From the NCBI GenBank assembly GCA_938010435.1, contig CALLUS010000023.1, forward strand, positions 1-64,000: DNA of 64,000 nt, in the 5' to 3' direction. Positions 28,893 to 45,998 of this stretch are shown one piece after another (position 1 is the stretch's first letter; each line of letters starts with the position of its first letter). The position numbers and the translations under genes are program-made. This DNA is from an uncultured Rhizobiaceae group bacterium. GTDB taxonomy: Bacteria > Pseudomonadota > Alphaproteobacteria > Rhizobiales > Rhizobiaceae. Below the pieces are notes generated by a model. That model ran no database searches. It saw nothing but the letters and a program-made list of their open reading frames with translations, and was not told where the DNA came from.

Positions 28893-29492
28893 ATGAAGCT
28901 TGAGATTGCTGTAAAACGAATAGTATTGCCCCTGTTTGCATGTTTGGCTCTTAGTGCCTGCGTGAGCACAACGACAAGCAAGGTTTCTGTTGATTACTAT
29001 TCCATATCCGGAAACTCGACTGCAGCCCTTGACCGTGAAATTCGCAACAAAGGACCACGGATTGATGGCGGTCGCCATGCTGTGGCTGTAGCACGAATCA
29101 AGATCATCCCGAATGTGCGCTATAATTCGAATGATGGTCGTTGCCGTGTCGCGTTTTCAAAAGTGGCTGTTAAAGCACGGGTGACCTTGCCGAGATGGCG
29201 CGAACGGGAGACAGCAACCAAAAAACTTGGTGAAGCTTGGGACAATATTGACCGTTACACACGCCTGCATGAATCAGTCCACGTGGCCATTGCATTCCGT
29301 TACGCCAAAGACTTGGAGCGCACACTCAGAGAATTACCACCGCGTCGTACATGTGCAGCACTGAAAACGCAGGTGAGTTCTATCGTCACCCAACGCTTGG
29401 ACGAACATGATGTGACACAGAAAAAATTTGATGCTGATGAGCAGAGAAAATTCTCGCTGTTGGCCCGAAAGCGTAAAAAAACGGGCGCTTAA
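28893..29492 (+). CDS. DUF922 lipoprotein, putative metalloprotease
   Basis: 199 residues. The N-terminus ends in a lipobox LSAC (Cys at about residue 22), so a lipoprotein. The domain begins VDYYSISGNSTAALDREIRNKGP, with RCRVAFSKVAVKARVTLPRW and then HESVHVAIAFRYAKDLE, a zinc-type HExxH motif. This is the DUF922 family of predicted Zn-dependent proteases. Residues after the motif include RRTCAALKTQV, giving a likely disulfide with the earlier Cys. A paralogue of similar length lies 114 bases downstream on the same strand. Confidence 0.83.
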   Translation: MKLEIAVKRIVLPLFACLALSACVSTTTSKVSVDYYSISGNSTAALDREIRNKGPRIDGGRHAVAVARIKIIPNVRYNSNDGRCRVAFSKVAVKARVTLPRWRERETATKKLGEAWDNIDRYTRLHESVHVAIAFRYAKDLERTLRELPPRRTCAALKTQVSSIVTQRLDEHDVTQKKFDADEQRKFSLLARKRKKTGA

Positions 29493-29606
29493 CCGGTGTT
29501 GCGATCACTTTTGTAAAACACACGTGTAATTTATCACATTCAGCTTGCAGTTTTCAGAGTCTCACTTACGCTTGCCAAATCAAATAAGCCCTGTGGAGCA
29601 TAGAAG

Positions 29607-30197
29607 TTGAATATAAAGGCGCTCATTCTAGCAACAAGCTTTTGCTTTGCGGCACCTTGTATCAGTTTCGCGGCACCTGTGAAGGTCAAAGAAAAGAACA
29701 AATTCTACACCATACAAGGTAAAACGGCTGCTGAATTTGCAGTGGCTATGAGCAAACGCGGCCCCTACTCGCGCCAACATCGCAAACGGGCCTGGGCAAC
29801 AGCCAGCCGCGACCTCTCCTATCAGTTGGTTCGCAAACGCGGATCAAAGGGCTGTTCCATTCGCGATGTGAAAGTTGAATTGGAAATCGTTTACACATTG
29901 CCGAAACTGCGCAACGAACGTTCCGTTTCCAAAAGACAGCGCTCTAAATGGCGCCGAATGTTCAATTTATTGAACAAGCACGAAAAGGTGCATGGTAAAT
30001 TGTACAAACAGTTTGCCCGGAACGTGCGTAGTCAACTATTGCGCATGCCTCGCGCCTCCTCCTGTCGTAAATTGGACCGTCAGGCGACCAAAATCGTTAG
30101 CGCACTGTCTGAAAAAGACAGTTTGACAAATGATCGCTTCGACTTGAAGGATCGTCGCAATTATTTGCTGATGGAACGCATCTATTCGGGCAGTTGA
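29607..30197 (+). CDS. DUF922 secreted protein, putative metalloprotease (paralogue)
   Basis: 196 residues, TTG start at 29607 with GGAG ten bases upstream. A cleavable signal peptide ends near SFA (residue 22) and there is no lipobox, unlike its upstream paralogue. FYTIQGKTAAEFAVAMSKRGP, GCSIRDVKVELEIVYTLPKL and LLNKHEKVHGKLYKQFA align with the first copy; HEKVH is the HExxH motif. Very basic protein (many Arg and Lys), which suggests binding to an acidic surface or polymer. The pair likely arose by old duplication, with different membrane attachment. Confidence 0.8.
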   Translation: MNIKALILATSFCFAAPCISFAAPVKVKEKNKFYTIQGKTAAEFAVAMSKRGPYSRQHRKRAWATASRDLSYQLVRKRGSKGCSIRDVKVELEIVYTLPKLRNERSVSKRQRSKWRRMFNLLNKHEKVHGKLYKQFARNVRSQLLRMPRASSCRKLDRQATKIVSALSEKDSLTNDRFDLKDRRNYLLMERIYSGS

Positions 30198-30227
30198 TTT
30201 TCACCAACTGCCTGTATTGGTAATGCC

Positions 30228-31274
<1,047 letters not shown>

Positions 31275-31387
31275 TCATCATTGTATTTTCTTGCGTCCAT
31301 CAAGTGATGGTTCAACGTGTTGAAAACAAGGAATGACTTTCCATGTTTTCGACATTCAAGAGAAAATTTCTGCAAAATAAGCCGTGT

Positions 31388-31732
<345 letters not shown>

Positions 31733-31832
31733 TTATCTTTTCTGCAGCGGATTTACCGTGACAGGCTTAAGAGTCAAGGAATTAGCGGAAAACTACAACT
31801 AATAGTGACAATTTGGCTTCGGGTCGGAGGGT

Positions 31833-32177
31833 TTAAGCTAAGATTTCGGCTATATAAGCGTTGGCATTTTCAATGGCCTCACGCAAAAGCGTGAGATCTT
31901 CCAAATGCGCAGTATTTGCTTCGATGCTCTTTGCTTCGTGTGCAACGATCCAGGCACCAATACCGCGTGCAGAACCCAAAATTGTATGCGCCGCAAGCTT
32001 TCGTTCATCGCTGGTTTTGGCATTACTCAGCCGGTCGAGATATAAAGCGGACTGGCTTTTGAAAAGGCTGAGAATTTCACGCTCTAGCGAACGGTCTCCC
32101 AATGATTGTCGTGACAAGTGAACCAAGTCGACAGGATTAGCAGAACTTGCCGAAGCAGGCGTTTTAACTGCGGGCAT
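31833..32177 (-). CDS. HPt-domain protein
   Basis: 114 residues from the ATG at 32177, which has GGAGG at a good distance (seven bases). An ATG at 32237 is also preceded by a weaker AGGGA and would add 20 residues. The core LSRQSLGDRSLEREILSLF and AAHTILGSARGIGAWIVAHEAKSIE match a histidine phosphotransfer domain, the His in AAHTILGSARG being the likely phosphorylation site. It should relay phosphate in a His-Asp cascade, but no kinase or regulator is adjacent. It is divergent from the giant coiled-coil gene, sharing the intergenic region. Confidence 0.82.
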   Translation of the reverse strand: MPAVKTPASASSANPVDLVHLSRQSLGDRSLEREILSLFKSQSALYLDRLSNAKTSDERKLAAHTILGSARGIGAWIVAHEAKSIEANTAHLEDLTLLREAIENANAYIAEILA

Positions 32178-32644
32178 TGCACACCCTCCATGAGCAGTTG
32201 AAAATGAAGAGCGGATCGATTTAGCGTGCGCAGCCATGGCTGAATGTTCCCTGCAAGTGAATTTGCGCTGTAATTGTTTAAATTTGCGCCTGCTCTATTG
32301 ACGTTCAGTTAACCGCGGACGGAAACTGAGCTTATAGTTAATGGAACGTTTGCAGCCATTATTTGCGTACAAATTGAATTGAACAGTGGAAAGATTAACC
32401 AAAATTAACCATTTTCACCTGTAGCGCCTATTCAACAGTACCCATTGGCACTGGTAAATCGTATGTTGATATGTGCGGCGGCGCGCGAACAACGAAGAAA
32501 TGCGTTTGATTTTGATGTTTTGAGGCGAATATCAAATGGTATTATCTTCCGTTCGAATTGTTGCCCACCCTGCTTGTAGAAGCAGTTTTGTAATTTGTGT
32601 TGGTCCTGTAGCATTGTACAAATCAGGACAAAGTAGAGGCAATA
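32178..32644. other. Intergenic region between HPt gene and GPR-like gene
   Basis: About 470 bases between divergent genes. It contains AT-rich blocks with several GTTAA/TTAACC words (32309-32313 and 32394-32411), which resemble half sites of the CtrA recognition sequence TTAA-N7-TTAA used in alphaproteobacterial cell-cycle control: TTAACCAAAATTAACC at 32395-32410 contains TTAA-N6-TTAA, one base short of the ideal spacing. This is suggestive only. A GAGG ribosome binding site precedes the ATG at 32645. Confidence 0.35.
32395..32410. promoter_or_regulatory. CtrA-like half-site pair, imperfect
   Basis: TTAACCAAAATTAACC holds two TTAACC words 10 bases apart, start to start. The CtrA consensus is TTAA-N7-TTAA; here the spacing is N6. 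It lies in the intergenic region upstream of the GPR-like gene, whose relatives act at the growth pole. A weak assignment, offered because of its context. Confidence 0.25.
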
Positions 32645-35600
32645 ATGGCTAAAAAAGCTAAAGCTAAGGCTCAAGTCGAATCCGCAAGCGATGCGTTAAA
32701 TGCGGTTGAAGAAGCGTTGAAAATCGACTTTGGACAAGAAGCACAAGCCGATAGTTTAGAAGACAACACTCCCGATGTAGCAGCCAAGACAGAAGCGCCG
32801 CGTCGTGAACAAGTTGTTTCCCCAAGCTCAGCACCGGCTAACGATGTGCGCCGCTCTGGTGCCGCACGCTTTGCGGCAACACTTAACAAAAAACCATCTG
32901 CGTTTTCTTTCTGGTTAGCCTCTTTTCTCACAATTGTTTGGATTGCAGCAGCCTGCTGGGCTGGATATTCCATTATTGGAGACTCGCTGACTGACATCAC
33001 TGCTTGGAGGGACATTGTTGAACGCCCTAGCCTGATTTACTTTGCGGCGAGCTTAATTTTACCTCTCATGTTGATCTGGAGCTACGCCTTGATGTCACGT
33101 CGGGGGCAAGAGTTGAAAATTGCTGCACGATCAATGACCGAAGTTGCTTATCGTTTGATCGAGCCGGAAAATGAAGCCACAGGCGCTGTGCGCAGTGTGG
33201 GGCAAGCTGTTCGCGTTGAGGTCAACGCACTGACTGATGGCATCGAACGCGCTATGGCTCGTGCCAGCGAACTCGAAGCCTTGGTGCACAATGAAGTATC
33301 AACGCTTGAGAATTCATATTCTGAAAACGAATTGCGTATGCGCGGTTTGGTTGAAGAGCTGTCCAACGAGCGTGAAGCGATCGTCAATCATTCTGAACGT
33401 GTTCGCTCTTCAATTGCGGGCGCAAGCGAAACGCTCAAAGAAGACCTCAACATCTCTGCTCTGCAAATTAGCAACAATGTTTCGGACGCTCAGCAAAATT
33501 TTAGTGCCGCTTTGAATTCAACCAACGAAGACATGAAAGCCTCATTGTCTGTTGCCGGTGAAACCTTGCTGGAACAGCTCACCCAAAAGGGTGCAGAAAT
33601 TGGCGGACGTATTGAAGATGCTGGTAGCACGATTTCAAATCAACTGGACACTACAACAGAACGCACAGCTTCCAAAATGGAAGACCTGACAACCAGCATG
33701 GCTTTCAGTTCTGAAAATGTGTCTGAAACCATTACTGCGCGTGTCGCTGAGATGGAAAGCCGCATTGAAACTGTGGGAACATCTGTCGCCGGAAAACTGA
33801 GCGATGCGACACAGCAGGCAACCAGTTCTTTGGAAGATGCTCAAGTTGGTCTGAATGCGGCTGCTGATGATTTGAATGCAATTGTTTCCGCACGTCGAGA
33901 TGAAATCGGCGAACAGATTGAAACTGCAGGCGCAAGTTTGTTGCAAAAACTCGAAGTAACAGGCCAGAACACGACCGCTGGCATAGAAGACATTCAAGCC
34001 ACACTTGCATTCGCTTCTGAAAATCTAAGTTCAATCATCGACACCAAAGGTGGTGAAATTGGCGAGCGTATTCAGCTGGCAGGCGAAGGCATGATGAGTA
34101 AACTCACCGCCACAGGTGAAACCACGGCTTCTGGCATAGAAGATGTTCAAGCAGCACTCTCCTTCGCTTCTGAAAACCTGGCCGCCGTATTGGACTCTAA
34201 AAGCGGAGAAATCAGTCAACGTATCGACGATGCCGGACAACAGATGATAGCTCAATTGTCCGAAACGGGTAAGAGCACAGCTTCCGGCATTGAAAACGTA
34301 CAGGCTTCACTGGCATTTGCTTCTGAGAACCTTAGTGAAATTCTGGATACCAAAGGCACCGAAATTGGCGAACGCATCGATATGGCTGGTCAAGGTATGC
34401 TCACGAAGCTGGCCGAGACAGGTATCAACACCGCAAACGGTGTGGAAAATGTTCAAGCCGCCCTCGCCTTTGCATCAGAGAACTTATCATCTTTACTGAG
34501 TGCACGTGGTGAAGACATCAGCGACCGCATCGACGCCGCTGGTAGCAGCATGCTGGAACGGTTGCGCGCGACCGGCGAAGCCACCGCGGACGGTATTGAA
34601 AGTGTCCAAGCCAGCCTTGGGTTTGCGACCGAAAACCTGACGGAAGTTCTGAATTCCAAGGGTGCTGAAATCAGCGAACGCGTGAACCAAAGCTCGGCCC
34701 GGTTGATCGACAGCATTGAATCAGCAGGAACGGCCACAAGCAATTCACTGGAAATCAAAACCAACGAGATTGCAGATCGCATCAACTTCTTATCTGAAAC
34801 CGTTCGTTCAGAGGTTGCTGAGAAATTCTCGGACATAGATGCTCAACTGGCTACCCGCGGCAGCGCCCTTGTGGATTCACTTGGTCAAAAATCGATCGAA
34901 CTCAGCCTTGCTCTTGAAACAGGTGCAAGTGAAATTGACGACACTATCAGTGAGCGTATTTCCAGCTTTGGCCAAACGCTCACAGGTCGTGTTGATGATC
35001 TCGTGACTAAACTCGACGAACGAAGCGAACTACTGTCATCCAACGTCGATAAGATCGATACGGCCCTCGACAACCGAACCCGTCAGATCAACGAAACGCT
35101 TGTGGAGCGGACACGTGAAATCGCTGGTGTGTTCAGCGAAGGCCAAAATACGATCAAGAACGACCTTGGCGCACAGTTGGATGAGACAAAAGAAACACTC
35201 GACAGTAAAGCGATGGAACTGTCCCTCTCGCTGGCAACACGTGTTGATGAAATCAATTCTAAAATTGGCACTCAAGTTGATGACATTGACGAAAAGCTTG
35301 CTCTTCGCGCCGCCGAAATTGAATCCCGTATGGCAGAGCGCTTGAGCGCGATTGATACAGCCATCGCAAAAGGCACAGCAGCTGCGGACCGCAAGCTGGA
35401 AGAGCGTGCAGCTCAAATGAAAGATTCGTTCGACGAACAAGTCGCCGTTCTCGACATGACGCTTGGTGCCAGAATGGACTCCATCGGATCTTCACTTGAT
35501 GAAGGTGCAGGCCGTGTGAACGAAGTGCTGTCGGCGCGTTCGAAAGAGCTGTCCGAGCAGTTAGAAGCAAATCTATCTGGTATTTCACAATCATTGTCCG

Positions 35601-37777
35601 GAGAAGCCAATAAGGCTTCTGACATTATGGAAGGTTCGATTTCTACAGCCGAAGCACGCATTGCGGATCAGTTGACTGCAATCGACAATGCACTGACACA
35701 ACGTGCCGACAAAGTGACAGTTACTTTGGCAGAGCGCACATCCGAGCTTAATACAATGTTGGCCGCACGTTCACGCGAGCTGAGCCAATTATTGGCGCGC
35801 GACACGCTGCCATTGCTGCGCAACTTTGAAGCCGAAGGTCAAGCTGTTGCGGCGGCCCTCTCCCAATCAACCGAGGAAATTGCGGTTGGTCTGTCGAGCA
35901 AACTTGCAGACAGTTCTGGAATCTTACGCAGTGCAGCAGATGATGCTGCTGCAAAACTGGAGGGTATGTTGGTCACTTCTAACGAACGTATGGAAGCATC
36001 AGCGCAAGCCGCGGCAGAAGACCTTGCTGCTCGTTATCTGTCATTGGAAGGTCGCACGACCGATTTGATCACCAAACTTTCACGCTCATCAGAAGCGTTG
36101 GCCAATGTCGTTGAAAACCAAAGTGCCACTTTAGTGTCCAGTGGTGAAACGATGGCTCAGCAAATGTCTGATGTGGCTGAGAATGTTGGCGAACGGGTGC
36201 GCTCTGAAAGCGCGGCAATGGTCAACACACTCACATCAAAATCAAACGCCTCCATTGAAGCGTTGAGCCAGACCAATGAGCGTTTGAAAACCGAAATTGG
36301 TGATTTGCTTGAGCGTTTGGGCCAATCAAACAATGTCTTATCGTCTTTGATCTCGACTGCGGATGAAAACCTTTCCGGTGCCCAAAACAAATTACTCACA
36401 CAAACAGAAGAATTCAAAAACGCAATCTCACAAGCTGCAAGTGATCTGAATTCATCTACCGGCATCATTGAATCGAACTACAATGGTTTGCGTGACGTAT
36501 CCGCGACCGTGTTAGTAGAAATTTCCGAAATCGCGTCCCGCTTTGACGAACAAAGCATGGCGCTGAACACAGTTTCAAGACTGCTGGACGATACACAAAG
36601 CAACATCGCCATCAGCCTCGATGATCGTCGTGATGCGATTGAGGCTCTAACGTCCGGCCTTGTTTCACGTTCAACGGACCTTGAAGACTTGATGCGTCGT
36701 TTCACCGAATTGATGTCAGATTCAGTGACCAATGCAGAAAGCCGTGCAGAAGGTTTGACCCAAGGGCTGGCGCAAAGTGTTGAAAATGCTGCAGTTGAAG
36801 CGACACAACGATTTGCTTCAGCGACCGAAGAAATGCGTTCAACAGCTGCAAGCCTGCGCGAAGACCTTGCTGTCACACGCACCGAGATTAAAAAGAGTGT
36901 GATTGATCTTCCTGAAGAAACCAAAGAAAGCGCATCTGCAATGCGCCGTGTGGTGTCAGATCAAATCAAAGCATTGAAAGATCTGTCTGATATCGTTGCA
37001 CGAACATCCCGTGTTCAAGATGCTGCGGGAAGCAATGCGCCCTCACCCATATCCCGCGCTATGTCTGCAGCACCTGCAGCTCCAACACCTGTTGAACCAG
37101 CCCGTGCTGTACCCGCACCTGCCCCAGCATCAATTCCTGCGCCTGTAGCTGTCGCTAAACCTGCTGTAGCGCAACCAACGCCTCCACCAATCGTTGAAAC
37201 TGCGCCTGTTGTTGCAACAACGCCTGCACCAACAGCACCTGCGCCGCGCGTAAACACACGACCGGCAATACCTTTACGCAAACAAGAACCATCAGAATTG
37301 CGTGGCGGTCTGGACTTTGATGCGGGTGAACGCGTTGAACCTACCGGTACCCGCGATGCCGGATGGGTGAGTGATTTGTTGCGCCGTGCCTCACAAGATG
37401 AAGATCAAACAACAACAGTTCCAAGATCGCGGCAAAGTGCAGATTCTCTGAACACATTGTCTGCTGATATTGCCAGTTCGATTGATCACGATGCCGCGGT
37501 GAGCTTATGGGATCGTTATCAACGGGGTGAGCGCAACGTTTTCAGCCGTGATATCTACACATCTCAAGGTCGTGAAACGTTCGACGACATCAGTGCCAAG
37601 TATCGCACTGATGCCCGTTTCAAAGACTCTGTTGATCGCTATGTGGATGATTTTGAGCGTTTGATTGCAGATGTGGCAAAAAATGACCGTGACAACATCA
37701 TGGCTCAAACTTACCTTACGTCTGATACAGGTAAAGTATACACAATGCTGGCGCACGCTGCCGGACGTTTCGCTTAG
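32645..37777 (+). CDS. Giant membrane-anchored coiled-coil protein, Growth Pole Ring (GPR)-like
   Basis: 1710 residues. Order of parts: a charged cytosolic N-terminus (1-85), two transmembrane helices (about 87-111 and 129-150), a long alpha-helical region with apolipoprotein-like heptad and hendecad repeats (about 155-1455), an Ala/Pro-rich linker (about 1459-1545) and a conserved C-terminal domain (about 1550-1710, with AVSLWDRYQRGERNVFSRD). Residues 342-698 are seven tandem 51-residue repeats. The architecture matches the GPR protein of Agrobacterium, which forms a ring at the growing pole, and 'kinesin-like' or apolipoprotein-domain proteins of Brucella. Role here is inferred: polar growth scaffold. 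GPR of Agrobacterium is longer, about 2100 residues. Start supported by GAGG. Confidence 0.75.
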   Translation: MAKKAKAKAQVESASDALNAVEEALKIDFGQEAQADSLEDNTPDVAAKTEAPRREQVVSPSSAPANDVRRSGAARFAATLNKKPSAFSFWLASFLTIVWIAAACWAGYSIIGDSLTDITAWRDIVERPSLIYFAASLILPLMLIWSYALMSRRGQELKIAARSMTEVAYRLIEPENEATGAVRSVGQAVRVEVNALTDGIERAMARASELEALVHNEVSTLENSYSENELRMRGLVEELSNEREAIVNHSERVRSSIAGASETLKEDLNISALQISNNVSDAQQNFSAALNSTNEDMKASLSVAGETLLEQLTQKGAEIGGRIEDAGSTISNQLDTTTERTASKMEDLTTSMAFSSENVSETITARVAEMESRIETVGTSVAGKLSDATQQATSSLEDAQVGLNAAADDLNAIVSARRDEIGEQIETAGASLLQKLEVTGQNTTAGIEDIQATLAFASENLSSIIDTKGGEIGERIQLAGEGMMSKLTATGETTASGIEDVQAALSFASENLAAVLDSKSGEISQRIDDAGQQMIAQLSETGKSTASGIENVQASLAFASENLSEILDTKGTEIGERIDMAGQGMLTKLAETGINTANGVENVQAALAFASENLSSLLSARGEDISDRIDAAGSSMLERLRATGEATADGIESVQASLGFATENLTEVLNSKGAEISERVNQSSARLIDSIESAGTATSNSLEIKTNEIADRINFLSETVRSEVAEKFSDIDAQLATRGSALVDSLGQKSIELSLALETGASEIDDTISERISSFGQTLTGRVDDLVTKLDERSELLSSNVDKIDTALDNRTRQINETLVERTREIAGVFSEGQNTIKNDLGAQLDETKETLDSKAMELSLSLATRVDEINSKIGTQVDDIDEKLALRAAEIESRMAERLSAIDTAIAKGTAAADRKLEERAAQMKDSFDEQVAVLDMTLGARMDSIGSSLDEGAGRVNEVLSARSKELSEQLEANLSGISQSLSGEANKASDIMEGSISTAEARIADQLTAIDNALTQRADKVTVTLAERTSELNTMLAARSRELSQLLARDTLPLLRNFEAEGQAVAAALSQSTEEIAVGLSSKLADSSGILRSAADDAAAKLEGMLVTSNERMEASAQAAAEDLAARYLSLEGRTTDLITKLSRSSEALANVVENQSATLVSSGETMAQQMSDVAENVGERVRSESAAMVNTLTSKSNASIEALSQTNERLKTEIGDLLERLGQSNNVLSSLISTADENLSGAQNKLLTQTEEFKNAISQAASDLNSSTGIIESNYNGLRDVSATVLVEISEIASRFDEQSMALNTVSRLLDDTQSNIAISLDDRRDAIEALTSGLVSRSTDLEDLMRRFTELMSDSVTNAESRAEGLTQGLAQSVENAAVEATQRFASATEEMRSTAASLREDLAVTRTEIKKSVIDLPEETKESASAMRRVVSDQIKALKDLSDIVARTSRVQDAAGSNAPSPISRAMSAAPAAPTPVEPARAVPAPAPASIPAPVAVAKPAVAQPTPPPIVETAPVVATTPAPTAPAPRVNTRPAIPLRKQEPSELRGGLDFDAGERVEPTGTRDAGWVSDLLRRASQDEDQTTTVPRSRQSADSLNTLSADIASSIDHDAAVSLWDRYQRGERNVFSRDIYTSQGRETFDDISAKYRTDARFKDSVDRYVDDFERLIADVAKNDRDNIMAQTYLTSDTGKVYTMLAHAAGRFA
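33668..34738 (+). repeat. Seven tandem 51-codon repeats inside the GPR-like gene
   Basis: Seven consecutive units of exactly 51 codons (153 bases), residues 342-698 of the coiled-coil protein. The shared pattern is ..GIE-VQA-L-FASENLS..(L/I)-(D/S)-(K/R)G-EI-ERI--AG--M---L--TG-(T).. . Units 3 to 6 are the most alike, and units 1, 2 and 7 have diverged. A constant 51-residue period is a multiple of neither 7 nor 11 but equals 4 x 11 + 7, which suits a right/left-handed mixed coiled coil. No insertions or deletions occur among the seven units. Confidence 0.85.
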
Positions 37778-37796
37778 CAAAGCCATCTATCTTGAA

Positions 37797-37827
37797 TTAA
37801 AAAGGACGCTCATGGCACCCTTTTTAA
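37797..37827. terminator. Bidirectional hairpin between convergent genes
   Basis: TTAAAAAGG / CCTTTTTAA, nine pairs, around a 13-base loop, between the GPR-like gene (plus) and lpxB (minus). A/T tracts belong to the stem itself, so either strand gets a U-run. GC content of the stem is low. Confidence 0.5.
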
Positions 37828-37830
37828 TGT

Positions 37831-38982
37831 TCATTTCATTGCGTGTTGCAGGATAATTTCTGCGGCTAGTTGACCAGGTGGTCGTTTGGTTTTCATAATT
37901 TTCGCAACATTTTTAAAACCCGAAATTTGGCGTTTTCTAGCAGCGCCATCCATCATCAATTCTTCCAGATAACGAGCCAAGCGTTGTGGGTCGACCATTT
38001 TGTTAAACTCTTCAGGTACCAACAATTGATCCGTGATGAGATTAGGCAAACTTGGAGACCAAATATTGATCAATGAGCTCAATACTGTGGCGGCAGGGTC
38101 AAGAATATAAGCCACCACCATCGGAACCCGATTGAGCGCCAGTTCAAGGGTGACTGTACCGGAAGCAGCCAAAGCCACATGAGCGTTGGTAAATGTGGTT
38201 GCGTTATCTTCGCTGTTCACAATAAGGGGCTTTACAGGCCAACTCTCCGTTTCACGTTCGATGCGTTCGCGCATACGAGAAACAGCAGGAATGACAGCTT
38301 GAAACTCATTCCCGCGCTCTTTCAAAATTTGAAGCGTTTCGCCGAACGGTTTCAACATACGTGTCACTTCACCGCCACGAGAACCGGGCAAAACGAGTAC
38401 GACTGGTTTTTCATCGTTTGGGTGAGACACAGTATCTTGGGGGGGTATATTCTGTACCAATGGGTGCCCCACATAAGTCGCTGGTGGGCCACCTAGATCA
38501 GCCAGTGCTTTTGGTTCAAATGGTAAAATGGCCAACACATGGTCTACATAGGCACACATAGATTTGGCACGGCCCTGTCGCCATGCCCAAACACTGGGAC
38601 ATACATAGTTTACAATTGATACATCGGGTAGTTTTTTGCGTACGCGTTTTGCCACCGCATGGGTGAAGTCCGGACTGTCTATCAGTACAATAACATCAGG
38701 CGCTTTGGCCACGATGTCAGTAACAGTCTCCCGAACGCGTCTTATGATTGTGGGCAATCTGGCGACCACGGCAGTGATCCCCATCACTGCAATATCATCT
38801 ATATCAAAGAGAGAGGTTTGACCTGTAGCTGTTAGTCGGTCACCTGCAAGCCCATCCACCCGAATCGTACGTCCCAATTTCTTGGCTTGGGATTCTAAAT
38901 AAGGCAACAGATCTGCGCCCAATGCATCTCCGGACTCTTCCCCCAACACCAGATAGATTTTCAGAGGATTATCGGCCATCAC
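37831..38982 (-). CDS. lpxB: Lipid-A-disaccharide synthase
   Basis: 383 residues. VLGEESGDALGADLLPYLES at the N-terminus, GITAVVARLPTIIRRV, VLIDSPDFTHAVAKRVRK, VNYVCPSVWAWRQGRAKSM and the later AASGTVTLELALNRVPMVVAY are LpxB signatures. It joins UDP-diacylglucosamine to lipid X to form the lipid A disaccharide, at the cytosolic face of the inner membrane. Last gene of the minus-strand lpxD-fabZ-lpxA-lpxI-lpxB set; its ATG overlaps the lpxI stop by four bases. Confidence 0.95.
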   Translation of the reverse strand: MMADNPLKIYLVLGEESGDALGADLLPYLESQAKKLGRTIRVDGLAGDRLTATGQTSLFDIDDIAVMGITAVVARLPTIIRRVRETVTDIVAKAPDVIVLIDSPDFTHAVAKRVRKKLPDVSIVNYVCPSVWAWRQGRAKSMCAYVDHVLAILPFEPKALADLGGPPATYVGHPLVQNIPPQDTVSHPNDEKPVVLVLPGSRGGEVTRMLKPFGETLQILKERGNEFQAVIPAVSRMRERIERETESWPVKPLIVNSEDNATTFTNAHVALAASGTVTLELALNRVPMVVAYILDPAATVLSSLINIWSPSLPNLITDQLLVPEEFNKMVDPQRLARYLEELMMDGAARKRQISGFKNVAKIMKTKRPPGQLAAEIILQHAMK

Positions 38983-39860
38983 CGTTCCCCAGCAGACCGG
39001 ATTTGATGTTCATCTATTCCATAAACGAAAATTCCAAGTTGCTTTGCAAGTTGAAGCGTCTTTTCGCGTTCAATGATAATAGATTTTCTGGCTTCAATTC
39101 CAATTCCACACAACATTGCACGATGGGCATTTTCAATTGTTAGGGGACCGATTGTAGGCAGGTCTGCGCGCTCGTCTTGATTTGGCTTTGTACATTTCAC
39201 CAACACACCTGTTTTCCGGTTTGGCAAACGTCCGTATGCACGCAACTCTTCTATACGTCGCAACATTCCGTCGGTACCTTCCACGCCTTCCACAGCCACA
39301 GCGCGTTTGCCAATAACCACGCAAGCTTGCCCGACATCATAGGGCCCGAGTGCATGAGTCACGGCGACACCTTCTAACAATCTGTCCAATTCCCGCCTAT
39401 TGGGTTTATGGCTGGTGTTGGGGCCAACGGATGCCAACAGTTCGGGCGCAAGTTCAGCAACACTGCACACCTTGTAACCACGCTTCTCAAATACGCCCAT
39501 AACACCGGACAAAATAGAGTTGTCTCCTGCCAACAAAACGGACAAAAGTCCGGGAAGTGTGCGGATAGCACCGAAATCCATTTTGCGCAGCTTGAGCTCA
39601 GGTCTTCCCACAACACCGCCGGCAAGAGCAATACGCTTCACCCCATACTCTTCCAAAATCTTGAAAAGCCGGCCAATCTTTTCCCATTCAATGATTTGAT
39701 GGGGGAAATCGTCGAGAGTATCGTCGGCCTCGCCTTTCACACCAATCATCAACACGTTCACACCACGCGCTCTCAAACTGTGGCCAATTTCAAGTGGTAG
39801 CTGTCCGTTACCGGCCAATATTGCCACAGGTTCTGAATTCTGGTCGATGTTTGTTTTCAT
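38979..39860 (-). CDS. lpxI: UDP-2,3-diacylglucosamine pyrophosphatase LpxI
   Basis: 293 residues. The opening VAILAGNGQLPLEIGHSLRARG and the later GVMGVFEKRGYKVCSVAELAPELLA, DVGQACVVIGKRAVAVEGVEGTDGML and GVLVKCTKPNQDERADLPTIG are diagnostic of LpxI (formerly DUF1009). It hydrolyses UDP-2,3-diacylglucosamine to lipid X and UMP. Alphaproteobacteria use LpxI in place of LpxH. Located between lpxA (24 bases) and lpxB (overlap), as expected for lipid A operons of this class. Confidence 0.95.
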   Translation of the reverse strand: MKTNIDQNSEPVAILAGNGQLPLEIGHSLRARGVNVLMIGVKGEADDTLDDFPHQIIEWEKIGRLFKILEEYGVKRIALAGGVVGRPELKLRKMDFGAIRTLPGLLSVLLAGDNSILSGVMGVFEKRGYKVCSVAELAPELLASVGPNTSHKPNRRELDRLLEGVAVTHALGPYDVGQACVVIGKRAVAVEGVEGTDGMLRRIEELRAYGRLPNRKTGVLVKCTKPNQDERADLPTIGPLTIENAHRAMLCGIGIEARKSIIIEREKTLQLAKQLGIFVYGIDEHQIRSAGER

Positions 39861-39884
39861 TCGGGATCAATGCCCCTCACAACT

Positions 39885-40688
39885 TTACGAACTTGCAGGA
39901 GTGCAAAGTGCGCGATCAGCAGATGCCAGGACGAAATCCAACATATCAACAAGCAATTCATCCGTAGCAGAAGCACGCAATTCTTTTGCGGACTCTTGAA
40001 TGGGGCGACCGCTTAAGAAAACCTCTTTATACCCTCCACGCACAGCATGAATACTCTCGCGCGCAATACCGGAACGTCTCATTCCAACGAGATTTAAACC
40101 AGCCAATCCACCCCGGGTCCCAATAACCATACCGAACGGAATGACGTCCCCTTCAGTGCCCGACAATCCGCCAATGAAAGCGTGGTGCCCAATACGGCAA
40201 AACTGATGCGCAGCTGCTCCGCCACCAAAAATAACATGATCCCCCACAACACAATGTCCTGCCAACATCACATTGTTTGAAAAAATAACGTCATTACCAA
40301 CAATGCAGTCATGGGCCACGTGGGAACTGGCTAAGAAGGTGCAACGATCACCAATTCGAGTAACGGAACCACCACCTGCAGTACCGGGGTTCATGGTCAC
40401 TGTCTCACGAATAGTGCAGTCCTCGCCGATCTCCAAAGTGACCGGTTCACCATTGTATTTCAAATCTTGCGGTTCGTTGCCGATTGATGCAAATGGGAAA
40501 ATACGAGTGCGCGCACCCAATGTTGTGGAGCCTTGCAAGGAAACATGGCTTAGAAGTTCAACGTCATCACCGAGTTTTGTATCTGCACCCACATGACAGA
40601 ATGGTCCAATTTTCACGCCTGAACCCAATTGAGCACCGTCTTCTACTACAGCACTCGCATGAATTTCCACACCGGAACTACTGGTCAT
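39885..40688 (-). CDS. lpxA: Acyl-ACP--UDP-N-acetylglucosamine O-acyltransferase
   Basis: 267 residues. Left-handed beta helix of hexapeptide repeats (about 1-190) beginning [54 protein letters not shown] contains the catalytic His of the LpxA active site, and [17 protein letters not shown] follows. The C-terminus is helical. It performs the first step of lipid A synthesis in the cytosol. The start ATG lies inside the last 11 bases of fabZ, so translation is coupled. Confidence 0.95.
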
Positions 40689-41145
40689 CGCGGCCTACCA
40701 TCATTGCGCCGACCATAGCCTCAGCAACTTTTTGACCGTCGACCTCGGCATAACAGTTGTATTTGAACACATTTCGTTTCTGACGAACTTTGGTAATCAC
40801 GTATTCCACCACGTCACCCGGCACCACTGTTTTGCGAAACTTGGCATTGTCAATCGTCATAAAATAAGTGGTCTTGGCCTCACCTTCATAATGAGCTTCA
40901 GCGCAAACTGCACCGGCTGTTTGAGCCATTCCTTCGATCAGCAAAACACCTGGCATTATAGGTGAATGGGGAAAATGACCTGTAAAATGTGGCTCGTTAA
41001 ATGTCACATTTTTAATACCTCGTGCAGACAGATCTCCATCTATTTCAATGATTTTATCAACCAACAAAAAAGGGTAACGATGGGGAAGAAGCTCCATCAA
41101 ACGTTTGATATCGATACTTTTCAATTCGCTCGTGTTTTCGGCCAT
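40678..41145 (-). CDS. fabZ: 3-hydroxyacyl-ACP dehydratase FabZ
   Basis: 155 residues from MAENTSELK at 41145; a longer frame to 41217 lies within lpxD and is rejected. Hot-dog fold with [19 protein letters not shown], and [26 protein letters not shown] holding the catalytic His and Glu. It dehydrates 3-hydroxyacyl-ACP in fatty acid synthesis and competes with LpxA/LpxD for hydroxyacyl-ACP, which is why it sits in the same operon. Five bases separate its start from the lpxD stop. Confidence 0.95.
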
Positions 41146-41150
41146 AATGC

Positions 41151-42203
41151 CTATTTCCCTTTTTTGCGTTCTTCTGCAAACGCTTCCCGCCGCAGACGCG
41201 CCACTTCGCGCATCCAATGCTTAATCGGTCGTGCTGGCACACCACCCCAAATAGATCCTGGTGGAACATCACCTGACACGCCGCTCAAGCCAGCAATCTG
41301 CGAACCACTCCCAATTTTGATGTGACCGTTGATTGCGGCTTGACCGCCCAAAACGACATAATCACCTAGTTCTGCACTTCCCGCGATTCCTGTTTGCCCA
41401 ACAATGACACAATGGCAACCAATCACCACATTGTGGCCAACCATTACCAAATTATCCAACTTTGAGCCTTGGCCGATAATTGTGTCCCGGTTTGACCCTC
41501 GATCAACGCATGAGTTTGAACCAATCTCAACTTGGTCTTGAATGACTACACGGCCAATCTGTGGTACTTTTAAATGACCGCCAGCCCCCATGGCAAAACC
41601 AAAACCATCTCCACCTATACGAACGCCCGAGTGAATGATCACTTCATCACCAATTACGGCGTGAACGACCGAAGCACCAGCAGATATACACGTATCGCGC
41701 CCAATTGTTACCGAAGCACCGACGACTGCGTTGGGACCGATATATGCCCCCTGCCCAATAACAGCGTTGGCACCAACCACAGCCCCGGGCTCAATAGTCA
41801 CATCATCTTCAATAACAACTGTCTCATGCAAAAACGCATTTTGGGATACGCCGTCCCCGACCAATGGCTGTGGACGCATAGCTTTTGGAAACAGCGCGGC
41901 GGCGGCGCGTGCAAAGGTTTTATAGGGTTGATCGGCAATCAACGCACAAACAGTTTTTGGAACAGATTCCACATAGCGTTTGCTACAAATAACAGCAGCA
42001 GCTTTTGTTTCAGCTAAAGCTGCTATGTATTTTGGATTGTCTAGAAAGGTTATGCTACCCAATGTGGCAGATTCAATAGGTGCCACAGATGACACTTTGC
42101 AACTTAAATCATCGCCATCGCGTATTTCAGCATCTAACTTTGCAGCTATATCTGAAAGAAGCATTGGTTTAGGCGTGTCAAAAAATGTCAAAGACTGAGT
42201 CAA
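41151..42203 (-). CDS. lpxD: UDP-3-O-acylglucosamine N-acyltransferase
   Basis: 350 residues. The N-terminal uridine-binding domain (about 1-100, [21 protein letters not shown]) is followed by hexapeptide repeats, with [38 protein letters not shown] and [21 protein letters not shown], the GHNVxIG-type His being catalytic. It adds the second hydroxyacyl chain in lipid A synthesis. The upstream bamA is separated by an intrinsic terminator, so lpxD may start its own transcription unit or depend on read-through. Confidence 0.95.
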
Positions 42204-42221
42204 AATTTATATCCGATTGTC

Positions 42222-42251
42222 AAAAAAAAGGCCGCCGCATTTGCGGAGGCC
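42222..42251 (-). terminator. Rho-independent terminator after bamA
   Basis: On the minus strand the hairpin GGCCTCCGC-AAAT-GCGGCGGCC has nine positions per arm, eight paired and one mismatch, and is followed by eight T. It lies 22 bases after the bamA stop and 18 bases before the lpxD start, so it splits the envelope gene block in two. Confidence 0.85.
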
Positions 42252-42273
42252 TAATTTCGCAAAAAAGCTCAAC

Positions 42274-44613
42274 TTAAAATTTTGAGCTGATGCCGAAACG
42301 TAAGGACTGAGTATCGTCGTAATCCGCTTCCGCGATTGGTTGCGCATAGTCGACACGCAATGGACCGAATGGTGATTCCCAAATGATGGAAGCACCAACA
42401 GAGGCACGTAACTCAGAATCATCTTGAATGGTTGCTGATGAAAAGTCATTGCCGAACAAAGACCCGGCATCAGCAAACAAAGCACCGCGAACTCCATAAG
42501 AACGAGGCAATAATGGTATAGGGAATTGAACTTCAGCAGAAACGTTCCAGTAGTTCAGCCCACCAAGCGCTTCATTAGTTACACTGTCGCGTGGACCGAA
42601 ACCACGGGTATCAAAGCCACGGATTTGTTGTCCACCTTGGAAAAAATGATCGGTTATTCGAAGAGTATCATTTCCGAAAGGCAACACATTGCCGGCTCCT
42701 GCAGCACCTTTGAGCACAATATCTTTGTCTTCGGATAAGAGATAGTAGCCAACCAAACGACCAGTTGTTCTTATGTATTCGGCATCACCGCCGACACCAG
42801 CAAATTGTTGATTAAACTTCCCGAACAAGCCGTTTCTTGGATTTTTAGTACTGTCCAAAGAGTTATAGACAAGACCGTAACCTAAAGAAGACGTGAAGTA
42901 AGGGCTTCTATTCACGGTGTCTTGAGTAGCTGCTGAAAGAACTGTCGTAACTCCGTCAATATCAAGTTTTTCGTACTTTGCTGTGTAATTTACACTGGCC
43001 GTTAATTGATCGGTGATTGGTGCAGCAGCTCTTAATCTAAATAGCGTAACTTCATTGTTGTAATTAACATCGTCGCTGGCTTCTGTCGTTTCATGAGAAA
43101 AATCAAAGCCAGCAGCAATACGACGACCCAAAAAATATGGCTCTGTAAAGGACAACTCATATTTCTCGGTGTCTTCACCAAAACCGCCTGATACTTTCAC
43201 GTATTGACCACGACCGAGGAAGTTACGTTCTGTAATCGAGACTTCGCCAATGGGGCCACCAGACGTTGAGTAACCGCCACCGAATGAAATCTCACCAGTG
43301 GATTTGTCTTTAACATTGACCACAACAACGACGCGATCTGGCGCAGAGCCCGGACGGGTTGTTATACGAACACTTTCGAAAAACCCGAGGCCTTCCAAAC
43401 GACGTTTTGCCTGATTCACAAGAACGCGATTATACGCATCACCTTCAGACACGTCGAATTCACGACGGATAACATAGCCACGTGTACGGTTATTGCCGAT
43501 AACTTCAATGCGTTCAATATATGTGCGAGGGCCTTCGTCGACGAAGAAAGTAATGTCGATTGTACGGTTTTCGAAATTGCGTTCACCGCGAGGTGTCACT
43601 TCAGCGAATGGATAGCCGCTTTCAGATATAGCAGCTGTCATAGATACCAAAGTACGCTCAATGTTGCGAGCGCTATATATGTCACCCTCACGAATTTTGA
43701 TCGCGTCTTGGAGCACACCATCGTCTACGACGGACAGAGCATTGTCAATGGCAACTGTTCCAAACGTATAGCGCTCACCTTCTTCAACGGTGATGTTGAT
43801 AGAGTAAGTGTTATTCACCTGGTCAAAATCACCAACAGCAGAGATCACACGGAAGTCTGCGTAGCCATTGTTAAAGTAAAAACGACGCAGACGTTCCTCA
43901 TCCGCACGCAAACGGTCCGGATCGAACACATCATCGCGCTTCAACCAGCTGAGAAAGTTACTCTCATTGTGAGAAATCACTTCAGTCAATCGGCTGTCAC
44001 CGAATGCGTTGTTTCCGATAAATTCTATGCTTGAAATTTTTGTGCGTCCGCCTTCGTTGACCAAGAAGACAATATTGACGCGATTGTTGTCGAGAACATC
44101 AACCCGTGCAGTTACATCAGCGGAAGCCCTACCGGAACGACGTACAGATTCACGAACACGCTCAACATCACTGTCGAGGTTCTCTTGGCTGAAAATGCCG
44201 AGACTTTTTGATTGCACAATACCGCGGAGTTGCTCGTCTCTAACCTTGTCGTTGCCTTCGAACTGAACCAAGTTAATGGTCGCATTTTCCTGAACTTCAA
44301 CAACGAGAGTAGAACCAGAAGTCGTGATGCGAACGTCTGAGAACAAGCCAGTTGCATACAACTGACGCAAAGATTCGTCAGTATCAAATGTACTGAAGCT
44401 CTTCCCCGGTTGAATTGTGAGGTAAGAGCGTACAGTTTCTGCATCAATACGTTGGTTACCGCGCACACTGATTGATCTCACAACCGCGGCTGAAGCCTGC
44501 GTTGCGGACACTGCAGATACAACAGCAACGGCAGGAACCAAGGCTCCAACAGCCAAAGTTACTGCCACTGAAAAGCGTATAAAACACAAGGAAAATTGGT
44601 GATGCAATTTCAT
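42274..44613 (-). CDS. bamA: Outer membrane assembly factor BamA
   Basis: 779 residues. Signal peptide (about 1-42), then five POTRA domains (about 43-430), opening SISVRGNQRIDAETVRSYL, and a 16-strand barrel (about 440-779). Barrel landmarks include GGGYSTSGGPIGEVSITERNFLGRGQ and HFFQGGQQIRGFDTRGFGPRD, the second being the VRGF-like motif (here IRGF) of loop 6. The C-terminus SLRFGISSKF ends with aromatic Phe as outer membrane proteins do. It inserts barrel proteins into the outer membrane. Preceded by rseP and followed by a strong terminator. Confidence 0.95.
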   Translation of the reverse strand: MKLHHQFSLCFIRFSVAVTLAVGALVPAVAVVSAVSATQASAAVVRSISVRGNQRIDAETVRSYLTIQPGKSFSTFDTDESLRQLYATGLFSDVRITTSGSTLVVEVQENATINLVQFEGNDKVRDEQLRGIVQSKSLGIFSQENLDSDVERVRESVRRSGRASADVTARVDVLDNNRVNIVFLVNEGGRTKISSIEFIGNNAFGDSRLTEVISHNESNFLSWLKRDDVFDPDRLRADEERLRRFYFNNGYADFRVISAVGDFDQVNNTYSINITVEEGERYTFGTVAIDNALSVVDDGVLQDAIKIREGDIYSARNIERTLVSMTAAISESGYPFAEVTPRGERNFENRTIDITFFVDEGPRTYIERIEVIGNNRTRGYVIRREFDVSEGDAYNRVLVNQAKRRLEGLGFFESVRITTRPGSAPDRVVVVVNVKDKSTGEISFGGGYSTSGGPIGEVSITERNFLGRGQYVKVSGGFGEDTEKYELSFTEPYFLGRRIAAGFDFSHETTEASDDVNYNNEVTLFRLRAAAPITDQLTASVNYTAKYEKLDIDGVTTVLSAATQDTVNRSPYFTSSLGYGLVYNSLDSTKNPRNGLFGKFNQQFAGVGGDAEYIRTTGRLVGYYLLSEDKDIVLKGAAGAGNVLPFGNDTLRITDHFFQGGQQIRGFDTRGFGPRDSVTNEALGGLNYWNVSAEVQFPIPLLPRSYGVRGALFADAGSLFGNDFSSATIQDDSELRASVGASIIWESPFGPLRVDYAQPIAEADYDDTQSLRFGISSKF

Positions 44614-44846
44614 GGATACTTTGCTCTCAAACTATGACCACAAGGGCCAACGTTGCGTCCTATATTTAAGTCTGTTCAATCCGCTGGAAAATAGGCGAAT
44701 TTGAGACAGAGCCCCAGATTTGTTAATTGTTTGTACAGGACTTTTTTACGGTTGCAACCACTGTCGGATGCTACAATTGCCAAAAAGTTTAAACAGCGAC
44801 CAAAACGCAACACAGCATGGGGTATTGGTTAATCAATAGTTAATAA

Positions 44847-45998
44847 TTAGCCAAAGACACCCAAGATCCGCCGTACATCATTGGACGTGGCGAACAGCAT
44901 CATGACCAATATGCAGGTTAAACCGATTCTAAACGCGTATTCCTGTGTCTTTACGGACAAGGCTTTACCGCGAATCCCTTCCAATGCGTAGAAAACTAGA
45001 TGCCCGCCATCCAAAACAGGAACCGGCAATAGATTCATCAAGCCGATACTGACGGACAAGGCTGCTGCTAAGGAAATGAGTTGCAGAACCCCAAGAGTGG
45101 CGACCTGTGAGGTCATTTGGCCAATCCCCAAGGGACCACGCAATTGCGTTGCATCCTGTTTGCCGACAATCAGTTCGCGTATGAAATGGTAAGTTCGTGT
45201 GACAATTTGCCAAATGCTGTCGAGGCTTTTGGTAAACGCGGCTCCCACACCTAATTGCACACGAACGATATTTTCTTCGGATGTGTCAGGACCGATTCCG
45301 ACAAGTCCTGTCATGAATTTGTTTCCGAAACGATCTTCACGCTCGGTCATTCTTGGCATGGCTTCAATTGTAAGTTCCTCATTTCCGCGCTTGATCACAA
45401 ATGTGAGAACTTCGCCTGTACCAACAAGTGTATAACGGGAGATATCTTGAAAATCGTTGATTTTGTCGCCATTGATACTGACGATTTTATCGCCCACTTG
45501 AATTCCAGCATCACGGGCAGCTGACACTTCGCTCACAGTGCCAACAACAGGCGTAATGCGTGCGTCTCCGTAATAAACGAACAAAGCTGTGTAAATTACC
45601 GACGCAAGTATGAAATTGGCGATCGGACCAGCGGCCACAACTGCAGCTTTGCGCCAAAGGGCTTTGTTCTGAAACGCCCCTTCCCGCTCTTGCTGGTTCA
45701 TCGCATCCAAAGCATCGTGGTCAGGTTTGCTACTGGCATCTTCATCGCCATAAAATTTTACGTACCCCCCAAGCGGGATTGCGCAAACTTTCCATCGGGT
45801 ACCGTGCCTGTCGTTGCGGCCAAAAAGTTCTGGACCAAAACCAACGGCGAAGGCATCTACCTTCACTTTATTCCAACGGGCCACCAGAAAGTGGCCAAGC
45901 TCGTGGAAAAACACGACAATGGTCAAAACGAACACAAACGGAATGACTTTTCCGATGAAAAACCAGAACAACCATTCAGGTGCTGCGAAAATGTCCAT
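44847..45998 (-). CDS. rseP: Site-2 protease RseP
   Basis: 383 residues. VVFFHELGHFLVARWNKVKV has the HExxH zinc motif in the first transmembrane helix. One PDZ domain is visible (AGIQVGDKIVSINGDKINDF, about 125-215). NLLPVPVLDGGHLVFYALEGIRGK provides the LDG zinc ligand. This intramembrane protease cleaves anti-sigma factors in the envelope stress response. The 233-base gap before bamA is the largest in the block and may hold a bamA promoter. Confidence 0.94.
   Translation of the reverse strand: MDIFAAPEWLFWFFIGKVIPFVFVLTIVVFFHELGHFLVARWNKVKVDAFAVGFGPELFGRNDRHGTRWKVCAIPLGGYVKFYGDEDASSKPDHDALDAMNQQEREGAFQNKALWRKAAVVAAGPIANFILASVIYTALFVYYGDARITPVVGTVSEVSAARDAGIQVGDKIVSINGDKINDFQDISRYTLVGTGEVLTFVIKRGNEELTIEAMPRMTEREDRFGNKFMTGLVGIGPDTSEENIVRVQLGVGAAFTKSLDSIWQIVTRTYHFIRELIVGKQDATQLRGPLGIGQMTSQVATLGVLQLISLAAALSVSIGLMNLLPVPVLDGGHLVFYALEGIRGKALSVKTQEYAFRIGLTCILVMMLFATSNDVRRILGVFG

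Follow-up and report, generated by a model that had tools for sequence, protein, structure and literature searches.

A GPR/RgsE orthologue of the Rhizobiaceae whose long helical body changes length mainly in steps that would keep the helix in register

The growth pole of Agrobacterium and Sinorhizobium is organised by the large proteins GPR and RgsE, which have a polar ring or scaffold role and whose loss rounds the cells (PMC8262873, PMC7327166). In the passages of these papers considered here, GPR (Atu1348, 2115 aa) and RgsE (SMc00190, 2089 aa) are described with two N-terminal membrane segments, a very long helical body resembling PF01442, low-complexity stretches and a functional C-terminus. 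RgsE is called repeat-containing, with no period given in those passages (PMC7327166), and words starting with "repeat" or "periodic" are absent from the main text of PMC8262873. Here, we analysed a stretch of 64,000 nucleotides from an uncultured Rhizobiaceae group bacterium (hereafter the window), which encodes a protein that can be likened to GPR and RgsE by this description.

The gene lies at positions 32645–37777 of the forward strand and is an intact frame running from ATG to TAG, encoding 1710 residues as proposed in the initial annotation; the protein is thus shorter than both described relatives. Hydropathy predicts two transmembrane segments (residues 86–104, 32900–32956, and 130–148, 33032–33088), in agreement with the two N-terminal helices previously claimed, and the bulk of the protein comes after them. 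The body (residues 152–1450, 33098–36994) appears helical from its local hydrophobic periodicity of 3.64 residues per turn, and the protein matches PF01442 (Apolipoprotein) over nine stretches with 183.4 bits, for a cut-off of 90 (E 4.6e-54). A Pro/Ala-rich flexible linker (residues about 1455–1585, 37007–37399), recognised from the sequence and from the indel sizes in congeneric pairs, precedes a conserved C-terminal domain (residues 1586–1710, 37400–37774) that is delimited by alignment and predicted by AlphaFold2 to be all-helical, with a mean pLDDT of 83.4. The protein thus shares with GPR and RgsE the membrane segments, the body, the low-complexity stretches and a conserved region in the place of their functional C-terminus, and it differs from them, as they are described, in carrying an array of 51-residue repeats. 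A search of its own genome with the whole protein returned a single match. Elsewhere in that genome, a 1321-residue frame holds another PF01442-like stretch (G000:C8:58471–58929, reverse strand), which is weak at 27 bits. Assignment to the antiphage protein ZorA was rejected: the NCBIfam score is 35.2 bits for a cut-off of 190, and the best stretch (residues 397–560) falls in the body, so that we take it as repeat resemblance.

Using the C-terminal 140 residues as query, the domain was found in 38 of 41 relatives, in 12 of the 15 genomes from the genus and in 244 of the 247 sampled from the family, mostly in single copy, with second matches in two genomes of the family set and one of the relatives set. 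In a 33-row alignment, 30 of the 32 other rows share 39–77% identity with the window domain, and the two remaining ones 26–29%. Conservation extends beyond the C-terminal domain claimed at the outset, since this domain and the N-terminal region were both detected in all 37 order-level ORFs that are 5'-complete and non-duplicate, as well as in 60 of 60 further ORFs of the family. At least two hydrophobic segments are present in 90 of 98 homologues at a hydropathy threshold of 1.4, and in 97 of 98 at 1.2. The architecture and distribution of this single-copy gene, together with its PF01442 similarity and its relatives across the order, support the initial suggestion of a GPR-like polar scaffold, and we consider its status as a GPR/RgsE orthologue well supported. 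One 0.9 Mb genome with the same genus label (G014, 98% complete) has no match to the C-terminal domain, which may reflect loss from a reduced genome or a problem with the label. For the domain itself, the search for a PDB fold returned no match at E ≤ 0.001 and 22 weaker ones, and the search by sequence for a solved relative found none (best E 0.023). The best Pfam family, Abi_2 (E 0.0019, 5 of 33 members), was unconvincing and was rejected.

Distant RgsE homologues outside the order are mentioned for Emcibacterales and Rhodospirillales in the available passages of PMC7327166. Of the 192 class genomes sampled, 77 were matched by our C-terminal profile, and 74 of these are labelled outside the order. 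Among 40 class-level ORFs (two of them from the same order), at least two N-terminal hydrophobic segments were found in 36, one in two, and none from the first Met in two. After exclusion of the two same-order proteins (L174, L181) and one short body, 37 of the 40 remained for the pitch and lag counts: lag 25 is preferred in 17 of the 37 and the median pitch is 3.58. Homologues outside the order (L175–L213 except L181) mostly show a period of 25 and a pitch of about 3.58, versus 11/22 and 3.64 inside it.

Within the body, seven units of 51 residues, each made of four hendecads and one heptad, tile residues 342–698 (33668–34738) without gaps, as revealed by lag and profile analysis; a profile built from the seven units identified an eighth, degenerate one at residues 291–341 (33515–33667). 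Identity at lag 51 reaches 47% in 342–698, lags 102, 153, 204 and 255 being the next four best, and over the whole protein the lag-51 diagonal reaches a score of 851 at best, compared with at most 50 in five shuffles. The units had been described as exact; this holds for their length, not for their sequence, as they are 22–67% identical to one another at the protein level. Tandem Repeats Finder (TRF) reported no DNA array at the 51-residue period, its only hit being one 22-base repeat distinct from this array, and a satellite at the DNA level was rejected. Since the units have diverged and TRF does not see them in the DNA, the array is old and diverged, and exact in length only. The period is also local: the best lags are 77, 33, 216, 161, 11 and 22 in residues 700–1000, and 11, 29 and 22 in 1000–1430. 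The array contains no proline and 8.7% glycine. Comparison with congeners indicates that the unit at 291 has matches at 45–57% identity in 8 of 9 of them, and that the window units tend to share one best-matching unit in more distant congeners (8 of 8 in L044; 5 of 8 in L046, L047 and L048); judged from these unit matches, the arrays appear to have grown separately. In the GPR of a 1.1 Mb genome (L069), residues 1457–1601, towards the C-terminus, form near-perfect 36-residue repeats with 95–99% identity between lagged copies, which has the look of a recent expansion.

The core of each 51-residue unit comprises 14 positions, the spacing 3-4-4 being repeated four times and followed by 3-4 once, giving 14 turns of 3.643 residues. 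Nine of them carry large hydrophobic residues confined within about 65 degrees, forming a narrow stripe, and the other five are occupied by small or polar residues, in most cases Ser, Gly, Gly, Gly and Thr. Unit positions 13, 21 and 41 are strongly hydrophobic and lie outside the stripe. Position 13 is Phe in six of the seven units, and these six Phe are all the aromatic residues of 291–698; the nearest complete relative repeats this pattern (six of six), and in a more distant congener 7 of the 10 units carry Phe at this position, alongside other aromatics. This Phe lies off the stripe and is a possible evenly spaced docking mark along 33668–34738. Between residues 284 and 658 the phase of the stripe shifts by just about 30 degrees; it then drifts steadily to about 1100, as expected for pure hendecads, and changes smoothly to about residue 1230. 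Near 1250–1320 the stripe weakens to a strength of 0.33 and its phase turns rapidly. The body is acidic, with a net charge of -6.8 to -9.5 per 100 residues (-9.5 in the array), and the median over 98 homologues is -5.6. In the same 98 proteins the local pitch has a median of 3.64 (IQR 3.63–3.65). A helix that is acidic and bears a narrow stripe is more in keeping with a coiled coil, presumably formed by self-association, than with a helix lying on a membrane.

To follow how the body changes in length, we aligned 129 congeneric pairs and took the 25 closest disjoint pairs, at 65% identity or more, for indels. Four entries that are the same genes as others (L002, L003, L004 and L007, corresponding to L042, L041, L043 and L047, respectively) and four fragments (L008, L009, L070, L077) were dropped before counting, and the 5'-open L041 was left out of the body statistics. 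The bodies of the 25 pairs contain 36 indels, 34 of which have a size of the form 11a+18b residues, and none is shorter than 11. The sizes are 11 (nine times), 22 (4), 26 (2), 29 (3), 33, 36 (5) and 40 (2), followed by 51, 58, 65, 66, 72, 87 (3) and 88 (2). The two that do not fit, 26 and 26, come from a single pair at 76% identity. The flexible ends behave differently from the body: indels under 11 residues make up 28 of 32 in the N-terminal tails and 67 of 69 in the linker and C-terminus of congeneric pairs, or 95 of 101 together. At the gap setting used, the fit of 34 out of 36 is far from chance, because only 22% of the sizes up to 60 and 30% of those up to 90 have this form, and because 34 fits were reached in none of 20,000 trials in which the body sizes were jittered by up to 5. 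The top lag is likewise of the form 11a+18b in 98 of 98 homologues, although 51% of the scanned lags (15–159) qualify.

The outcome depends on the cost given to gaps. From the softest to the firmest setting, 28 of 44, 32 of 39, 34 of 36 and 33 of 35 body indels fit in the 25 pairs, with seven indels under 11 residues at the softest cost and three at the next. Among the 17 pairs sharing at least 86% identity, 13 of 13 fit at three of the four settings, while the softest gives 12 of 14. Over the 26,243 body residues compared in these pairs, indels under 11 are absent at the same number of settings (three of four), whereas the ends of the same proteins have 53 such indels out of 55. As the fit falls to 28/44 and 32/39 at softer settings, the 11a+18b rule holds cleanly only when the pairs are close or the gap costs firm.

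Eleven residues make about three turns of an alpha-helix and eighteen about five. We propose that the protein is a polar-growth scaffold whose body is probably a hendecad coiled-coil rod of free length and fixed facing. The N-terminal hairpin would hold the scaffold in the inner membrane; the body would be a long alpha-helix, most likely packing with its own copies into the rod; the Pro-rich stretch would act as a flexible tether and the conserved helical domain as a docking head. Each step of 11 or 18 residues would return the hydrophobic stripe to nearly the same side, and selection may tolerate changes in length and remove changes in phase, because a break in phase would split the stripe. 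Several observations count against this proposal: the two indels of 26 residues, the weaker fit under soft gap costs, the three hydrophobic unit positions off the stripe, the weakening and rapid turn of the stripe near 1250–1320, the glycine content of the array, and an AlphaFold2 model of the array that, although of low confidence, lacks a single uninterrupted helix.

The initial annotation had instead taken the constant period to suggest a ruler-like element that could determine ring size; in this reading, the 51-residue repeats would fix the length of the rod and hence the size of the ring. The seven gap-free units, the evenly spaced mark provided by the Phe at position 13 and the lead of lag 51 in seven of the 11 proteins from the genus all speak in its favour. 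With the established helix rise of 0.1485 nm per residue, a single unit forming a straight helix would be about 7.6 nm long. On a larger scale, at about 0.15 nm per residue, the whole body of the window protein would measure about 190 nm when fully straight, and a helix of 1,700 residues about 255 nm by the established rise, compared with the 600 nm stated for an extended conformation in the part of PMC8262873 considered here. However, the period is not constant among homologues: lag 51 is strongest in only 8 of 98, the seven of the genus and one protein of another genus, the others being led by lags 22 (40 proteins), 29 (18), 36 (9), 33 (5), 62 (5), 66 (4), 55 (3), 44 (2), 94 (2), 18 (1) and 109 (1). 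The nearest complete relative, at 86% identity, has 11 residues fewer inside the array, one body indel of 174 residues separates congeners at 84% identity, and body length ranges about six-fold, from 401 to 2435 residues (coefficient of variation 0.29). The ruler was not borne out, neither repeat number nor spacing being conserved, and on this variation in length and period we reject it as extremely improbable. Rather than a mark on a ruler, the 51-residue unit represents one repeat length among several (22, 29, 36, 51, 62 and others) that can be composed of steps of 11 and 18 residues, and the array is a lineage-specific form of a rule, observed in the 25 pairs, in which length is free and phase largely fixed.

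In another reading, the body would be an amphipathic helix lying on the membrane, its phase kept so that one face meets lipid; periods of 11 and 22 residues, as observed here, are typical of apolipoproteins, and the match to PF01442 points the same way. A lipid role is also favoured by the authors of the GPR study in the passages considered (PMC8262873). The stripe is nonetheless narrow, where an apolipoprotein would have a wide amphipathic face, the array has only six aromatics, and an acidic body is poorly suited to an anionic membrane; PF01442 is moreover hit below its cut-off in 7 of 14 control genomes, so that the match may reflect the repeat pattern alone, and we regard this reading as unlikely. 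That each 51-residue unit is a helix and a turn, the chain folding back and forth in stacked hairpins, would agree with the argument in the same passages that the chain must fold since the foci are 50 nm (PMC8262873), and with helix breaks in the AlphaFold2 model of the array, five of seven of which fall near unit positions 22–26. Yet that model, with a mean pLDDT of about 42, is too weak to use, the stripe shows no jump in phase at the putative turns, residues 342–698 are free of proline and a difference of 11 residues is tolerated within one unit, which makes stacked hairpins very unlikely. A purely mutational origin, with slippage between units setting the indel sizes without structural selection, is suggested by insertions that closely resemble their flank (36 aa at 94%, 29 aa at 83%, and three of 11 aa, two at 82% and one at 91%). 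Other insertions are little like their flank, the 11-residue one of the window pair matching it at 0–9%, and slippage leaves unexplained why indels under 11 residues are missing, at three of four gap settings, from the bodies of the closest pairs and so common in their ends; we consider it highly improbable.

The proposed hendecad coiled-coil rod has partial parallels elsewhere. Phage tape measure proteins have bodies built of 11-residue and also mixed 11-11-18 units with Trp/Phe marks, and change by duplication or loss of units, according to the passages available from PMC3271669; the Phe of the window protein recurs too, once per 51 residues. Their gene length is proportional to tail length (same source), whereas neither length nor unit number is held constant among GPR homologues; we claim no homology. 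Another comparison is offered by the coiled-coil linkers of Rec-GGDEF diguanylate cyclases, the lengths of which are discretised so as to keep the helical register (described in the part of PMC8041772 considered here), as in the GPR body, where such register-keeping steps account for the 34 fitting indels in a manner dependent on gap cost. Those linkers are short and change in steps of 7, while the GPR rod exceeds 1000 residues and changes in steps of 11 and 18. In our search for literature on quantised coiled-coil indels, PMC8041772 was the only relevant paper among the matches listed.

Upstream of gpr, on the reverse strand, a divergent gene (31833–32237) encodes an Hpt domain with AAHTILGSARGIGAW around its candidate phospho-accepting His (Pfam Hpt, E 6.5e-5; 23.5 bits for a cut-off of 24.6). 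It is kept beside gpr: relatives occur upstream in 31 of 39 order-level loci, and as four of the eight misses have fewer than 400 bases upstream, in 31 of the 35 loci with at least 1.3 kb; the candidate His is conserved in 30 of these 31. Of 19 loci from outside the order, four have a small Hpt ORF upstream, and one more shows a weak match inside an 889-residue frame. The word "Hpt" is absent from the main text of PMC8262873 and PMC7327166, and the literature search on Hpt and polar growth gave nothing on an Hpt protein beside GPR among the matches listed; PMC9022086, in the part considered, concerns another, orphan hybrid kinase. We retain a phosphorelay input to polar growth through Hpt as a candidate link, that is, as a lead. 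In the same region, a 2Fe-2S ferredoxin gene (31397–31732, reverse strand) adjoins the Hpt gene and has relatives in 32 of 39 order loci, and two adjacent DUF922 proteins (28893–29492 and 29607–30197, forward strand), both above the Pfam cut-off, are apparently tandem paralogues. The genes lpxB, lpxI, lpxD, bamA and rseP (37831–45998, reverse strand) are convergent to gpr. A functional link between lpxB and gpr was discarded, their adjacency being found in 3 of 39 other loci, all of the same genus, with some loci holding little downstream sequence. No RNA family reached its gathering score in 29000–39000.

TipN of Caulobacter likewise combines a pair of N-terminal membrane segments with an extended coiled-coil region, and we liken it to GPR by this architecture. 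TipN is a new-pole marker in the passages considered (PMC10127582), and no TipN–GPR link appeared in the titles and abstracts among the matches listed. In a wider and quite doubtful scheme, GPR would be one branch of alphaproteobacterial polar scaffolds made of a hairpin, a phase-locked rod and a conserved head, in which rod length is free and adaptive and facing invariant, the Phe at unit position 13 serves as a docking mark in the lineage of the window, the Hpt protein provides a phosphorelay input and the supercoil differs between orders.

In the passages considered of PMC8262873, the authors propose lipid sorting in a folded chain for the giant helix of GPR and ask whether the helix mediates protein contacts. 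That the body changes length mainly by steps preserving the register points towards a coiled-coil rod and argues against a fixed-length ruler. If the wider scheme were true, this rod would carry register or rotation between the membrane and the head.
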